Shown: positions 3,556-11,401 of the stretch, piece by piece
Numbering within the stretch: the first letter of the stretch is position 1
How the letters are laid out: each line of letters starts with the position of its first letter
Source of the DNA: Rhodopirellula sp. P2
GTDB taxonomy: Bacteria > Planctomycetota > Planctomycetia > Pirellulales > Pirellulaceae
NCBI RefSeq assembly: GCF_028768465.1
Contig: NZ_CP118225.1
Coordinates: 6,739,001 to 6,803,000 of the forward strand
Direction of reading: 5' to 3'
DNA length: 64,000 nucleotides
Made by a program: the position numbers and the translations under genes
Notes under the pieces: model-generated
The model's input: only the letters and a program-made list of their open reading frames with translations
The model's database searches: none
What the model was told of the DNA's origin: nothing

Positions 3556-3935
3556 CGAGGGATCGCGTGCCATTGCAACGAGCCTGTACGCCCCTCGCTC
3601 ACGCGCCGGGTTGTGAACTCGGGTTGAAGGACGCCTCCCTCTCCGTGGGGAACAATGCGAAGCGACAGCGGGTGGCTCCGCGTCCGATTGTGACGCCCCC
3701 CGCAGAATTCTCCTTCCCCACAATCCGTCTTGGATTGGTGGCAGCGGCCCAGATTGGACTAAAATGGAGTTTGGTTGTCGGAGGATGCTCAGCCCCCAAC
3801 GGGTACATTTCCCGCCGGTGGTCGTTCTATTCTTGTCTCGCGTCGCTTCCAGCCCGCCTGCTCATTCTTTTCTGATGATGAGTGACGAAAGGCTTTTGCT
3901 TCGCACTTCTCGTCTAACTTCGCCGAGCGTTTTTC
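3556..3935. other. Spacer before the DUF1549 gene
   Basis: No gene is supported in these 380 bases. A short fragment near 3617 (ACTCGGGTTGAA) matches half of a hairpin of the tandem array at 1034-2131, as if a piece of that family were left here. The promoter of the downstream DUF1549/DUF1553 gene should lie in the last part, but no clear -35/-10 pair was found. Confidence 0.5.
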
Positions 3936-5609: not shown

Positions 5610-5658
5610 GCCTGATTCCACCTCAAGCCTGATTCCACCTCAAGCCTGATTCCACCTC
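5610..5658 (+). repeat. Three tandem copies of a 17-bp repeat
   Basis: GCCTGATTCCACCTCAA occurs three times in a row just after the stop of the DUF1549 gene; the third copy is cut to 15 bases. It lies in the spacer between two genes expected to be co-transcribed. No hairpin forms from it. It is a likely replication-slippage product. Confidence 0.85.
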
Positions 5659-7048: not shown

Positions 7049-7570
7049 GTGAGTGAACTTTCACCAGCTGAATTGGTTGTCCGCCACCAAGATGGAATTT
7101 GGCGGTATTTGCGACTGCTCGGATGTGACTCCGCCACGGCGGACGATTTGACGCAGGAGACGTTTCTGCGTGTACTTCGACGAGACAACTTCGTTCAACA
7201 TTCAGACGAAGCCACTTCAGAATACCTGCGCCGTACGGCGTACAACCTCCTCGTTTCATACCACCGAAAGTTCGGACGGATCCGACTTTCTGATTCACCT
7301 GAGTTGCTGGACGAAAGCTGGCAACGATGGGCGGGCAAGGATTTGACGGGCAATGAAACCGTCGAGGCCCTCCGAGAATGCATGGAGGGACTGACCGAAC
7401 GTGCTCGCGACGCCTTGGCAATGCGTTTCGTTCACAACACACCGCGCGTGCAAATTGGTGAAAACCTGGGCATTTCCGACCACGGAGCCCGAAACCTGAT
7501 GCAGCGAGCGAAAGCACAACTTCGAGAGTGCGTGGAAGAAAAACTCCGCGCCGTGACTCAACCATCATGA
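7049..7570 (+). CDS. ECF-type RNA polymerase sigma factor
   Basis: A 173-residue extracytoplasmic-function sigma factor. Region 2 covers about residues 5-70, with DDLTQETFLRVLRR and TAYNLLVSYHRK. Region 4 covers about 105-165, with LTERARDALAMRFVHNTPR and a helix-turn-helix ending in GARNLMQRAKAQLREC. The GTG start at 7049 gives the normal family length and avoids overlap with the DUF1501 gene; a TTG at 6989 would run 41 bases into it. The stop overlaps the start of the next gene (ATGA), so the two are likely translated together, as sigma factors and their anti-sigma factors often are. Confidence 0.88.
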   Translation: MSELSPAELVVRHQDGIWRYLRLLGCDSATADDLTQETFLRVLRRDNFVQHSDEATSEYLRRTAYNLLVSYHRKFGRIRLSDSPELLDESWQRWAGKDLTGNETVEALRECMEGLTERARDALAMRFVHNTPRVQIGENLGISDHGARNLMQRAKAQLRECVEEKLRAVTQPS

Positions 7571-9576
7571 ATACAAACCCTTCCCACGCGGAACCGCACG
7601 AGGATCCCCCTCGGAACAATGGCCCTGACTCTCAGGGACCGGAGTCGCTGCGCGAAGACGCCATGCTGGACCTGCTGATCCAGGAAGCGCTCGGTGGTCC
7701 CACACCGTCCGATCAAACCGGACTCATCCTGCGACGATTGGCGGACGAACACGCCGGGTCAGATTCCAAACTCGCAGGTTCCAAGAACCAATCCTCCCGT
7801 GACGCTTCTCGGGTTGCCAAGCACTCATCCAAACTTTCGCTGGCCACGATCCTGATCGGCACCGCCGCCGGATTGCTGCTGTGCGTGGGTGTCGCAGTGG
7901 GTGTGAAGTACCGATCCGATGTGGCTCTGCAGGCAATCGCCGACGCGGCCGCCGACCGCGCCGCGCCATCCGTGCCCAACCCGGCTCCCGTGGTGGACAG
8001 CGAAGACGCGTCCCCACAACCCAAGTCCGCTCCGCGAAAACGCGCTCAACCGATCGAGTTGGCAGGTGACCCATCGACCACCGTCGCTGGCGATCCAGGC
8101 TCGCTCTCGACCGACTCACCGGAGTTACCAGGTCAGCAAGACGTTCAGCCTGCTTCACCATCCGCCGCGGTCCCGTCGATCACCTTGGTTTCGCAGAACA
8201 TCGACGCGAGTTGGCAGTCGCACTGGAAACGCCTGGGCGTCCGCCCCACGCCTTCGCGTGAAAAGGAATCCATTCAACAGGAACTCGCTGACCGCTTGGG
8301 TCTGGTGATTCCCGTCGAGGCGATCGGCGACGCCCAAGCCATTCGAACGGCGATCGCCAGCCCCTCGAACCGCCAAGCGATCTCGAATCGGTTGCTGACC
8401 GCTTTCTTGGGGAAGAAATCCAAGCACCAAGATGCCTCGGAGAGTCTCAGCGAAGTGCTGAACAGCGGGGCGGGTGCCGATCGCCTGATCGCCGCTTGGA
8501 TGCTCCCTTCGAAGGCCGGTTCGAAACCCAACGCCGACGTAAAACCGGACACGCAAAAGTCGGCCGCAACGCCTTGGATTCGGATGTTGCAACCAGCCGA
8601 CTTGCACGAAGTCACGGTCAAGACCGCGGCCCTGACCCGTCACCAGGACCTGCGTTGTCAACGCTGTCATGATGTTCCCAACTCCGGTGATGAGATTCCC
8701 ACTCAAGCCGATTACTGGACCGTCGCGGCCGAACTGGCTCCGCTGCTGAATCCGTCGCGTGCCGACAAGGACATCTTCTACGACACGCCGGACGGACGTC
8801 GGCAGTTGGCCAAGCGTCCTTCGCAGGCAGAAACACAGGCCAGGTCCAACAACCTGATTGGCTCACGGGATTTAGCGGAAGGCATCGTCTCGACCTTGTT
8901 CGCGATGGTTCACGATTCGCCGTCAACGACCAGCCCGTTTGATCTGTCGGCTGCCTCCGTCCCGCCCGAGACGCTGCGGCCGCTGGTGGACGACTTGATC
9001 GCCAGTGATTTCGATGTGCTTCGCAGCCTGTCGATTTTGTTGTCCGACACCGTGATGACTCGCTCGGTTCCCGATGCGATGTCGCCACAAGGAATCTTGA
9101 TCGCCGACGACCAGCAGTGGTCCAGTGCCGTGTCCGCCGTCCACGCGATGGCGGCTCGATCGCCGTTTCGGCGTCCTGGCTCCGCTCAGCGTCGATTGCA
9201 AGTCGCTTTGCAGGATGCCAAACCAAACTGGCCGGGCGACAGCGGTCGCGACACGTTGCTGGCTCAGCCCCTGGGCAGCGAATTGTCCGCCGATGGCACG
9301 CCGTCGAACTCGGAGAAACGCCGTCCTGAAAAGAACGGGGATCGCAAAGCCGCGGTCGCCTCGACCGGGTATCCCATGCGATCGTCGATGATCGTCCCTG
9401 CGTGGATTTCGCAGTTGCCGGATTTTGACAGCCGCTTGGATCACGTCGCGCATTTAGCCGGTCAGCTGAAACTCAACACTCCCGAACGCGAATTGGCACA
9501 CCAAGCCCTGGCATCGGGCGACGACGAGGCGTTGATCTTCGAACGGTTATGGTGGATCATCCGGCCCAACAGTTGA
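7567..9576 (+). CDS. Membrane-anchored DUF1549/DUF1553-like protein, candidate anti-sigma partner
   Basis: A 669-residue protein. Residues 1-90 are a charged, probably cytoplasmic segment containing DLLIQEALGGPTPSDQTG. One membrane helix follows at about 92-115. The rest should lie outside the membrane: an Ala/Pro-rich linker to about 205, then a diverged DUF1549/DUF1553-like region. It contains SHWKRLGVRPTPS, a CQRCH motif at Cys364-His368 followed by ADYWTVAAELAPLLNP, and DFDVLRSLSILLSDTVMTRS, which lines up with the DUF1553 block of the protein at 3936. The layout (cytoplasmic N-terminus, one helix, external domain, 4-nt overlap with an ECF sigma gene) suits an anti-sigma factor. No zinc anti-sigma motif was seen, so the role is inferred. 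Confidence 0.8.
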   Translation: MNTNPSHAEPHEDPPRNNGPDSQGPESLREDAMLDLLIQEALGGPTPSDQTGLILRRLADEHAGSDSKLAGSKNQSSRDASRVAKHSSKLSLATILIGTAAGLLLCVGVAVGVKYRSDVALQAIADAAADRAAPSVPNPAPVVDSEDASPQPKSAPRKRAQPIELAGDPSTTVAGDPGSLSTDSPELPGQQDVQPASPSAAVPSITLVSQNIDASWQSHWKRLGVRPTPSREKESIQQELADRLGLVIPVEAIGDAQAIRTAIASPSNRQAISNRLLTAFLGKKSKHQDASESLSEVLNSGAGADRLIAAWMLPSKAGSKPNADVKPDTQKSAATPWIRMLQPADLHEVTVKTAALTRHQDLRCQRCHDVPNSGDEIPTQADYWTVAAELAPLLNPSRADKDIFYDTPDGRRQLAKRPSQAETQARSNNLIGSRDLAEGIVSTLFAMVHDSPSTTSPFDLSAASVPPETLRPLVDDLIASDFDVLRSLSILLSDTVMTRSVPDAMSPQGILIADDQQWSSAVSAVHAMAARSPFRRPGSAQRRLQVALQDAKPNWPGDSGRDTLLAQPLGSELSADGTPSNSEKRRPEKNGDRKAAVASTGYPMRSSMIVPAWISQLPDFDSRLDHVAHLAGQLKLNTPERELAHQALASGDDEALIFERLWWIIRPNS

Positions 9577-9610
9577 TTGTTTGTGGCCCTTGAACGGATC
9601 CGAAGTTTGT

Positions 9611-11401
9611 ATGACCTCTCCAGCCTTCGGACAAGTTCACGTTTCAGATTGCGTCGAGGGCATGGCAAAACTGCCAGCCGGCTGCATCGATTTGGTTTTT
9701 GCCGACCCACCGTTCAACATCGGATACACCTACGACGTCTACGACGACTCGCTGGAATCCGATGAATACATCCAGTGGTCGGAGAGCTGGATTCGCGGCG
9801 TGCATCGCGTCCTCGCGGATGACGGAGCCTTCTGGTTGGCAATCGGAGACGAATACGCGGCCGAACTGAAGGTGCTGTCGCAGCAGATCGGCTTCCAGTG
9901 TCGCAGCTGGGTCATCTGGTACTACACCTTTGGTGTGCACTGCAAATACAAATTCACGCGGTCGCACGCCCATTTGTTTCATTTCGTCAAAGACGAGAAA
10001 CACTTCAAATTCAACGCCGACGATCCCTCCGTTCGCGTGCCTTCGGCCCGGCAATTGGTCTACAACGACCGCCGTGCCAACAGCAAAGGCCGGATGCCCG
10101 ATGACACTTGGATCCTGCGCCCCCAGGACCTGCCGTACGGCTTCACGGCCGATGAGGACATCTGGTACTTCCCCCGAGTCGCGGGCACGTTCAAGGAGCG
10201 TGCTGGGTTCCATGGCTGCCAAATGCCCGAACAGTTGCTCGGCCGCATCATCCGGGCCTGCAGTGACCCCGGTGACAAAGTGCTGGATCCCTTCAGCGGC
10301 AGTGCCACCACGGTCGCCGTTGCCAAAAAGCTCGGCCGTGAGTTCGTTAGTTTTGAGATGAGCGAAGAATATGTTTCGCTCGGAAACGAACGTCTCGAAC
10401 AGATTCGTGTTGGCGACCCGCTCACTGGTGCCGCAGACCCGCTTCGCAGCGCCCCCGCCACCAACGGCAAGAAGAACGAATCCAAGGCGGAAAAGCTAGC
10501 TCGCGAGGAGGAGGAACGACAACGCTGGGCAACCCAGCAGGTCGGGCCTCAGTTGGAATTCCAATTTGAAACCATGCGTGCCATGACCGATGGCGAACTG
10601 ATCAACGCCTTCCGAGACATCCATGACGGCCACTCCGTCGATCGGGTGCTGCTCGACCCGGTGCTGAGCGATCGTCTGGAAATCGCTTGCCGCCGCGTCT
10701 CCGAACGCGAGCCCTCTGCGTCCCGACGCCAGCGTCTGATCGAACTTCGCGCGTCCGGTGCGCTGACCGCGGAAGGCATTCACACGGAACGCCCCACAAC
10801 GATCCCAACCAGCACTCTCGAACGATTCAGCTACGCCGCTGAACTGGCGTGGGCCAACCTCGCACAGCGTTACCCCGAACACAGCTTGGACGATCTTTTC
10901 ACCGATCCAAAGTTGCTGGAAGAGTTTGATCGCGAAGCGTTGCTGCACGCGTTTGACTCGGATCGCTTGACTCTTCGTTGGTGTGCGACGCAACTCCGAT
11001 CATGGGCGACCACCGCCCGAGAGCACCAACCCGGTGAAGACGCGTTGGAGCAATCGCCGCCGAAGTTTTCAACAGCTAAAAACTGGACCGCCAACTCTGG
11101 GCCGAGTTCGAAAAGCGGCTCCGCCAAAGGCGGTCTGTACCAAGTGCTCGCCCAGGACGGTTCCGTGTTGTTCGTGGGCGAAACCTCCGACTTCAGCGTT
11201 CGGTTTGGCGACCACCTCGCCAGCGAATCGGCAGAACGCTTCTGGCGAACCGAGGCCGGCGGCCAACCCAAGGCACGCACTGCGTTGCTCCCAGACGCGA
11301 CGGGCCCGGAACGACGCCTCGTGCTTTGCCAATGGCTGCAAGAGAACCCAGCGACCACACGAAACCTCGTTGCCTTGTGGAAGGATCTTATCGAAATTTA
11401 G
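9611..11401 (+). CDS. DNA methyltransferase (beta-type) with C-terminal GIY-YIG-like domain
   Basis: A 596-residue protein. The N-terminal 270 residues form an N4/N6 amino-methyltransferase of beta order: catalytic motif IV DPPF at 32-35 comes first, and the SAM-binding motif DPFSGSATTVAVAKKLG starts at 226. A charged linker (about 285-320) and a helical region of unknown kind (about 320-480) follow. The last 90 residues look like a GIY-YIG nuclease: GLY at 508-510, FVGET at 521-525, Arg531 in SVRFGDHL, Glu567 in PERRLVLCQWL and Asn585. These match the spacing of the usual catalytic Tyr, Arg, Glu and Asn, though the second Tyr is Phe521. ATG 9611 was chosen over TTG 9581. No separate restriction gene is next to it. 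Confidence 0.88.
   Translation: MTSPAFGQVHVSDCVEGMAKLPAGCIDLVFADPPFNIGYTYDVYDDSLESDEYIQWSESWIRGVHRVLADDGAFWLAIGDEYAAELKVLSQQIGFQCRSWVIWYYTFGVHCKYKFTRSHAHLFHFVKDEKHFKFNADDPSVRVPSARQLVYNDRRANSKGRMPDDTWILRPQDLPYGFTADEDIWYFPRVAGTFKERAGFHGCQMPEQLLGRIIRACSDPGDKVLDPFSGSATTVAVAKKLGREFVSFEMSEEYVSLGNERLEQIRVGDPLTGAADPLRSAPATNGKKNESKAEKLAREEEERQRWATQQVGPQLEFQFETMRAMTDGELINAFRDIHDGHSVDRVLLDPVLSDRLEIACRRVSEREPSASRRQRLIELRASGALTAEGIHTERPTTIPTSTLERFSYAAELAWANLAQRYPEHSLDDLFTDPKLLEEFDREALLHAFDSDRLTLRWCATQLRSWATTAREHQPGEDALEQSPPKFSTAKNWTANSGPSSKSGSAKGGLYQVLAQDGSVLFVGETSDFSVRFGDHLASESAERFWRTEAGGQPKARTALLPDATGPERRLVLCQWLQENPATTRNLVALWKDLIEI

Follow-up and report, generated by a model that had tools for sequence, protein, structure and literature searches.

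Anti-sigma factors whose sensing module resembles a member of their own regulon are known from Clostridium thermocellum. The passages cited describe RsgI6 as a transmembrane anti-sigma factor whose outer module, a GH10 domain that is 57% identical to Xyn10D and has very low activity, is homologous to a regulon enzyme, with SigI6 recognizing both its own promoter and enzyme promoters (PMC4711584; PMC6056542). A comparable likeness is found in BlaR1, a domain of which is described in the cited text as structurally homologous to class D β-lactamases (PMC5957439); BlaR1 differs in that it is not an anti-sigma factor and signals through a metalloprotease domain that faces the cytoplasm and takes part in derepressing BlaI, according to the cited abstract (PMC9834060). 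The domain family at issue here, PSCyt2/PSD1 (DUF1549/DUF1553), occurs in proteins of Planctomycetes and Verrucomicrobia, for which roles in carbohydrate metabolism and redox reactions have been suggested; the cited passages make no mention of anti-sigma factors (PMC5615132, PMC2754498). In Rhodopirellula baltica, an extracytoplasmic function (ECF) sigma factor was suggested to regulate a PSD1- and PSC2-containing protein (RB10049/RB10051; Studholme 2004, cited in PMC2754498), and an anti-sigma role goes unmentioned in that citing passage. Here we analyze a series of four forward-strand genes of Rhodopirellula sp. P2 (genome size, 7.29 Mb) that encode, in order, a secreted DUF1549/DUF1553 protein, a DUF1501 protein, an ECF sigma factor, and a one-helix membrane protein, a putative transmembrane anti-sigma factor referred to below as the sensor. 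All four lie in a stretch of 64,000 nucleotides (contig NZ_CP118225.1, positions 6,739,001 to 6,803,000) that we call the window. Judging by gene number and position, RB10049/RB10051 seem to belong to a different locus.

The closest precedent is RsgI6, which follows the plan proposed here for the window sensor; neither it nor BlaR1 is a relative. The sensor shares with class I transmembrane anti-sigma factors an adjoining, overlapping gene and a single membrane helix, and with RsgI proteins the homology of its outer module to a probable member of its regulon, with which it appears to have a promoter in common. The RsgI N-terminal domain was not found in it, with no Pfam match at E up to 1. RsgI6 differs from the window system in its sigma class, in its unrelated domains, and, by the cited accounts, in having a known substrate (xylan, cellulose); the window system differs from RsgI6 in that a graded series of intact to degenerate sensors is visible among its relatives. 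The initial annotation of this DNA knew of no such described sensor, and a literature search for DUF1549, PSCyt, PSD1, and DUF1501 in combination with sigma, anti-sigma, and planctomycete yielded, among the matches listed, no paper on an anti-sigma factor bearing this domain. That part of the statement stands within this scope, but the principle of a regulon-like sensing module has a precedent in the cited account of RsgI6 (PMC4711584).

We assign a probability of about 0.7 to the reading that the four genes constitute one feedback circuit, in which an anti-sigma factor with a degenerate DUF1549/DUF1553 sensor reads the secreted system and the whole is autoregulated. The short cytoplasmic N-terminus of the membrane protein would hold the ECF sigma factor. 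Its outer domain, which is predicted to keep the overall fold and has retained a CxxCH site of the heme c or metal type while losing most conserved residues of the family, would most likely read the state of the secreted DUF1549–DUF1501 system, either via the same partner or ligand or via the redox or heme state of the CxxCH motif. When the system is needed, the sigma factor would be released by conformational change or intramembrane proteolysis, and the freed protein would read TGAGTACA-N14/15-CGYT, a promoter to judge by its sequence, before the DUF1549–DUF1501 genes and before its own gene or operon. A promoter in front of both means that the circuit would control itself. The self-regulating unit of DUF1549–DUF1501 pair, sigma factor, and sensor that had been proposed at the outset gains support from this common ECF-type promoter.

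The ancestry of the outer domain is hard to see from the window sensor alone, which matches no Pfam family at E up to 1, likewise finds no match in NCBIfam, and aligns by BLASTP to the upstream DUF1549 protein at E 0.062 over little beyond the CxxCH motif. Profile–profile comparison (hhalign) of 40 sensors with 48 operon DUF1549 proteins gave a match running end to end over 440 columns (Prob 98.2, E 5.5e-14). The 40-sensor set leaves out five proteins linked to DUF1549 by phmmer (L069, L070, L083, L084, L085) and five that are near-copies, cut, or split (L023, L024, L026, L033, L089); another five, whose phmmer links are weaker (L053, L056, L057, L058, L066; E 3e-6 to 3e-11), were kept. The profile–profile alignment pairs the sensor block FDVLRSLSILLSDTVMTRS, which the initial annotation had singled out as DUF1553-like, with YDLKKLITWITLSRPYQLA in the DUF1553 part of the upstream protein. 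Pfam matches at E up to 0.01 among 36 sensor relatives are to DUF1549 in 26 and to DUF1553 in 10, the window sensor having neither. A scan with the DUF1549 protein as query, from which we named the best 80 of 433 loci (the basis of the 70-, 73-, and 80-locus figures), reveals that in 70 loci the product of the gene directly behind the sigma gene resembles DUF1549 to graded extents. The E values run from 7e-196 in L276 (against a profile of the operon DUF1549 proteins) through 3e-25 in L229 down to no likeness by direct comparison, and many loci, including the window's nearest relatives, stand at that undetectable end. Among 62 complete sensor relatives, CxxCH is present in 61 and kinship is detectable in 61, the exceptions being L249 and L248, respectively. 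Across 50 aligned sensors (the window sensor and 49 of its 53 strongest relatives, omitting L245, L267, L275, and L249, which lacks CxxCH), the invariant residues are C364, C367, H368, and W220. As judged from the profile match and the intermediates, the outer part of the sensor is a diverged DUF1549/DUF1553 domain. The kinship proposed from the single sequence, and the profile comparison suggested to probe it, are thus borne out by hhalign, by Pfam matches in relatives, by the graded series, and by the predicted structures described below.

Gene order across genomes is conserved in a survey of the kind proposed with the initial annotation. With the window sensor as query, a relative was found in 57 of 199 sampled genomes of the family, an underestimate given the divergence, and among 50 loci that have a sensor of this kind, 47 show the order DUF1549–DUF1501–sigma–sensor (exceptions L057, L084, L085). 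Starting from the DUF1549 gene, sigma and sensor genes follow in 70 of the 73 loci with enough contig (exceptions L211, L261, L263), seven of the 80 loci being cut by contig ends and uncounted (L210, L215, L224, L234, L243, L258, L274). Three layouts recur. In layout A, the sigma gene is followed by a tethered, intact DUF1549 gene, with DUF1501 next in five loci (L167, L174, L178, L183, and L190, the last ending at a contig end). Layout B reads DUF1549–DUF1501–sigma–tethered intact DUF1549, and layout C, that of the window, DUF1549–DUF1501–sigma–degenerate sensor. Of the 13 genomes whose loci are tethered-only, 10 have a separate secreted DUF1549 gene elsewhere (L325–L334), followed by DUF1501 in eight of these 10; an eleventh copy, L337 in G319, is uncertain, being a partial match with DUF1501 behind. 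The presence of a separate secreted DUF1549 gene in at least 10 of these 13 genomes led us to drop a simple scenario in which such genomes have no secreted copy and tandem duplication produced the window layout. In strain CA13 (L211, L057) the operon is split, one contig carrying DUF1549–DUF1501 at 443 kb and sigma–sensor at 23 kb. The window's own genome also encodes a second operon of sigma factor, tethered DUF1549/DUF1553 protein (868 aa, hydrophobic helix near residue 94), and DUF1501 (L195 2855–7514; G000:C1 6259854–6264513). In L192, a sigma gene is accompanied by the genes of a DUF1549 protein (1224 aa, hydrophobic helix near residue 81) and of DUF1501. Two further loci of the own genome, L193 and L194, consist of a sigma gene, a separate one-helix protein, and then a DUF1549 protein (with one extra open reading frame (ORF) between in L194), an arrangement that is an unfused form of sigma–DUF1549 coupling.

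That the sigma factor serves both DUF1549–DUF1501 and itself is best supported by the distribution of a shared promoter across these loci. A two-part element, TTG(A/G)GTACA and (T/G)CG(T/C)T(T/C) with a spacer of 14 or 15, lies 5′ of the operon DUF1549 gene. It scores above 10 in 67 of 77 operon upstream regions (76 of the 80 named loci plus the window) vs 6.5% of 154 shuffles, an in-sample figure, since the position weight matrix (PWM) was built on the same 77. The site at 3799–3827 is the best PWM match on either strand within the 64-kb window. PWM scores above 16 are reached by 62 sites in the 31 kb 5′ of DUF1549 genes, by seven 5′ of sigma genes, and by 15 in the other ≈2.24 Mb, both strands included. 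The next four counts are out of sample. Of 13 tethered-only loci, 12 have the element before the sigma gene, with a score of at least 15.7 in 11; L164 is weak at 11.6, L180 has none in the 164 nt available, and the site in L175 lies inside the called start. The element also precedes the sigma gene in all six layout-B loci examined but in none of seven loci with von Willebrand factor A (vWA)-type proteins described below. In seven of 10 genomes it is found, at a score of at least 14.7, ahead of the secreted DUF1549 gene that is unlinked (seven of 11 with the uncertain L337). Within the named set, the sigma gene has a promoter copy of its own in eight of 10 loci with an intact sensor vs one of 64 others, that one (L274) ending before the sensor; this points to loss of the second promoter where the sensor is degenerate, the genes there mostly lying closer. 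Near position 968 of L322, from the same genome, a promoter-like site on the minus strand scores 22.0, above that of the operon, and precedes a 324-aa ORF; it is possibly a further target of the sigma factor.

The residues lost along the series can be followed over 61 core columns whose residues are conserved among the secreted proteins as well as six further paralogues. The mean share of core residues retained is 0.99 in secreted proteins, 0.92 in tethered proteins of layout A, 0.80 in those of layout B, and 0.28 in the window type, the last from 16 sensors (the window and 15 of 70 picked for spread, in a set trimmed on CxxCH). The window sensor itself retains 11 of the 61 and keeps CxxCH, the second His of the CxxCHxHP sequence being lost, and CxxCH, L357, and W544 (secreted-protein numbering) are kept in 16 of 16 window-type sensors. 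The sensor gene evolves under purifying selection, with a ratio of nonsynonymous to synonymous substitution rates (dN/dS) of 0.14 to 0.19 vs 0.02 to 0.05 for the secreted protein in five genus pairs; these values are rough, as dS exceeds 1 in three of the five sensor pairs. AlphaFold models have a mean predicted local distance difference test (pLDDT) score of 76 and a predicted template modeling (pTM) score of 0.68 for the sensor, and a pTM of 0.85 for the secreted DUF1549 protein. In the sensor, pLDDT is mostly 85 to 98 over residues 201 to 550 and lower at 311–340, 371–380, 451–470, and 551–610. Compared by eye, the two models have corresponding helix order, one short helix and the strands at 236–256 being absent from the sensor. 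Among solved structures, neither protein has a fold match at E 0.001, and the DUF1549 protein has no sequence match; sequence matches of the sensor to designed helical proteins (best E 0.001) were set aside. In fold, the secreted DUF1549 model weakly resembles phycobilisome linker domains (best prob 0.54, with E 1.2), which we likewise set aside as solved relatives, and one sensor relative matches DUF4214 at 9e-4; a distant link of DUF1549 to that group is possible.

The same conservation pattern can be read differently, with the outer domain as a heme c redox or gas sensor whose DUF1549 kinship is incidental to the signal. CxxCH is nearly the sole feature common to the sensors, 61 of the 62 complete ones having it, and its two Cys and His, with W220, are the residues invariant in 50. 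L357 and W544 (16 of 16 in the CxxCH-trimmed set) and the helix order are kept as well, and we regard this reading as rather unlikely. It is compatible with the feedback circuit and not exclusive of it.

The initial annotation had the sensing domain copied from the secreted protein, that is, an ordinary anti-sigma factor that gained its sensor by copying the operon's own DUF1549 gene. Trees rooted on other DUF1549 paralogues instead place the secreted proteins as one group nested inside the tethered ones, with a Shimodaira–Hasegawa-like approximate likelihood ratio test (SH-aLRT) support of 100 in a 91-row tree, 100/99 in a 40-row tree, and 96/80 in a 49-row tree that includes the unlinked copies, where tethered L174 is unresolved among the secreted rows. 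Long branches are present in the 91-row tree; the later trees omit most long rows and the 49-row tree omits FB_L265 too. Window-type sensors enter as three intermediates (L069, L070, L083) in the 91-row tree, and the window's sensor, too diverged for any of the trees, is placed by the graded series. The nesting makes derivation of the secreted from the tethered form the more likely course. Another operon of sigma, tethered DUF1549, and DUF1501 in the same genome (L195) also speaks against copying. On the other side, both proteins belong to one subfamily: E values between intact sensors and the operon protein are mostly 1e-119 to 1e-190, some being weaker at about 1e-90 (G016, G100), compared with 5e-68 for the best other paralogue examined. 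Moreover, the approximately unbiased (AU) test does not firmly reject a single clade of all tethered forms (p 0.052) and is similarly marginal toward a clade that unites the own family's secreted copies with its tethered ones (p 0.058). We hold with moderate confidence that, on these sequences, the tethered form is the older and the secreted copy derived, the reverse of the direction first proposed, and consider copying unlikely. In the history that we favor, though it is not proven, the tethered protein was once a complete DUF1549/DUF1553 protein, the secreted copy assumed its function, and the tethered copy was reduced to a pure sensor. The fuller version is tentative and carries slightly less than even odds: the ancestor would have been effector and anti-sigma factor at once, the genomes would record the split, the tethered pseudo-copy would sense via CxxCH, and the sigma factor's promoter would link both copies even when unlinked.

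Whether the N-terminus holds the sigma factor bears on a third alternative, in which the sensor is a membrane-anchored helper of DUF1549–DUF1501 that merely shares the operon. The cytoplasmic part is indeed short and predicted to form two helices (residues 25–41 and 51–65, modeled by AlphaFold with moderate confidence there). A hidden Markov model (HMM) of residues 27–62 was run over 2353 ORFs from 49 stretches, most of which were chosen for a related sigma gene, and detects this segment in 43 of the ORFs with E values no higher than 5.9e-5; 39 of the 43 are distinct, four loci being duplicates. By a script rule, an ECF sigma gene immediately precedes the ORF in 40 of the 43; L173 and L186 also qualify if the start is set at the segment, and L188 lies ≈870 nt behind such a gene. 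Seven segment proteins (L184–L189, L191), from the same order of bacteria and again behind ECF sigma genes, carry an unrelated vWF_A, VWA, or YfbK_C outer part in place of DUF1549 and lack the promoter motif (0/7). Retention of the segment next to the sigma gene while the outer domain is swapped supports sigma binding, though it is not proof, and in CA13 the sigma–sensor pair stands apart from the DUF1549–DUF1501 pair that a helper would serve. We infer from these sequences that the sensor N-terminus holds the ECF sigma factor and judge the helper role distinctly unlikely; the proteins that bear the segment may make up an anti-sigma family, modular in build, within this order. That the resemblance to DUF1549 arose by chance around CxxCH, as the direct BLASTP comparison showing little else might suggest, is vanishingly improbable given the profile match, Pfam matches in relatives, core residues, and models, and is already refuted by the intermediate series.

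Several observations weigh against the feedback circuit and the history attached to it, the marginal AU values among them. The L248 sensor shows no detectable similarity, and L249 lacks CxxCH, with DUF1501 undetected at its locus; the motif may bind heme, metal, or nothing. Class I anti-sigma domains are defined in the cited passage by four helices (PMC7406223), and the sensor model has two in place of that four-helix N-terminal domain. The unlinked DUF1549 genes L331, L333, and L334, and the uncertain L337, have no promoter site, and the CA13 sigma–sensor pair lacks a good one although the separate DUF1549 gene of that strain has one. The core pattern is not enriched in the genome of the window (46 matches vs 58 for the reversed pattern), and we reject a large regulon there on this ground; 45 other sites were scored, four of them above that of the operon, which bears on specificity in vivo.

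If the four genes do form such a circuit, its inducer should be what the DUF1549–DUF1501 pair works on or what binds CxxCH, and a dedicated sensor with a defined promoter offers a handle on the DUF1549–DUF1501 system. The split operon of CA13 provides a natural test of control in trans, and the series from intact to degenerate sensors is a clear natural record of a protein becoming a receptor.

The features of the window are collected in Table 1.

Table 1. Features of the sigma–sensor locus (positions in the window)
Feature	Position	Strand	Basis
Candidate ECF promoter of operon, ACGGGTACA-14-TCGTTC	3799..3827	+	PWM score 18.5
DUF1549/DUF1553 protein, secreted, 556 aa	3936..5606	+	Pfam PSCyt2 E 2.4e-48, PSD1 E 1.4e-29; AlphaFold pLDDT 85
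DUF1501 protein, 422 aa	5761..7029	+	Pfam DUF1501 E 2.9e-107
ECF sigma factor, 173 aa, GTG start	7049..7570	+	Pfam Sigma70_r2 E 1.1e-9, Sigma70_r4_2 E 7.8e-10, both above cut-offs
Sensor gene, 669 aa, ATG start, putative transmembrane anti-sigma factor	7567..9576	+	ATGA overlap with sigma gene
Putative sigma-binding segment, residues 27–62, two predicted helices around GGxxPxD	7645..7752	+	HMM of segment
Transmembrane helix, residues ≈91–113	7837..7905	+	Hydropathy; AlphaFold helix 91–131
Outer domain, residues ≈205–668, diverged DUF1549/DUF1553	8179..9570	+	hhalign Prob 98.2; AlphaFold model
CQRCH (CxxCH), residues 364–368 (C364, H368)	8656..8670	+	Kept in relatives

The start codon of the sensor gene (7567–7569) and the TGA of the sigma gene (7568–7570) account for the 4-nt overlap, and the initial annotation was correct on this overlap, on the gene coordinates, on the CQRCH motif, and on a DUF1549/DUF1553 gene three genes earlier. 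With both sigma2 and sigma4 regions present by Pfam, the sigma factor conforms to the ECF type; it falls below the curated cut-off of Sig-70_gvs1 (TIGR02989) in NCBIfam, at 84.1 vs 124.55 bits. The sensor gene is single copy in 13 of 13 genomes of the genus, the match in G008 coming in two pieces of one frame. A tandem array of a 228-bp unit (≈4.8 copies, 91% matches) occupies 1033–2131, 5′ of the operon, and a perfect 17-bp repeat of 2.9 copies lies at 5610–5658, between DUF1549 and DUF1501 and just 3′ of the DUF1549 stop codon. Beyond the sensor gene, 9602–11401 encodes a DNA methylase (N6_N4_Mtase, E 3.3e-50) with a GIY-YIG-like C-terminal stretch scoring 21.6 bits vs a cut-off of 22.6.

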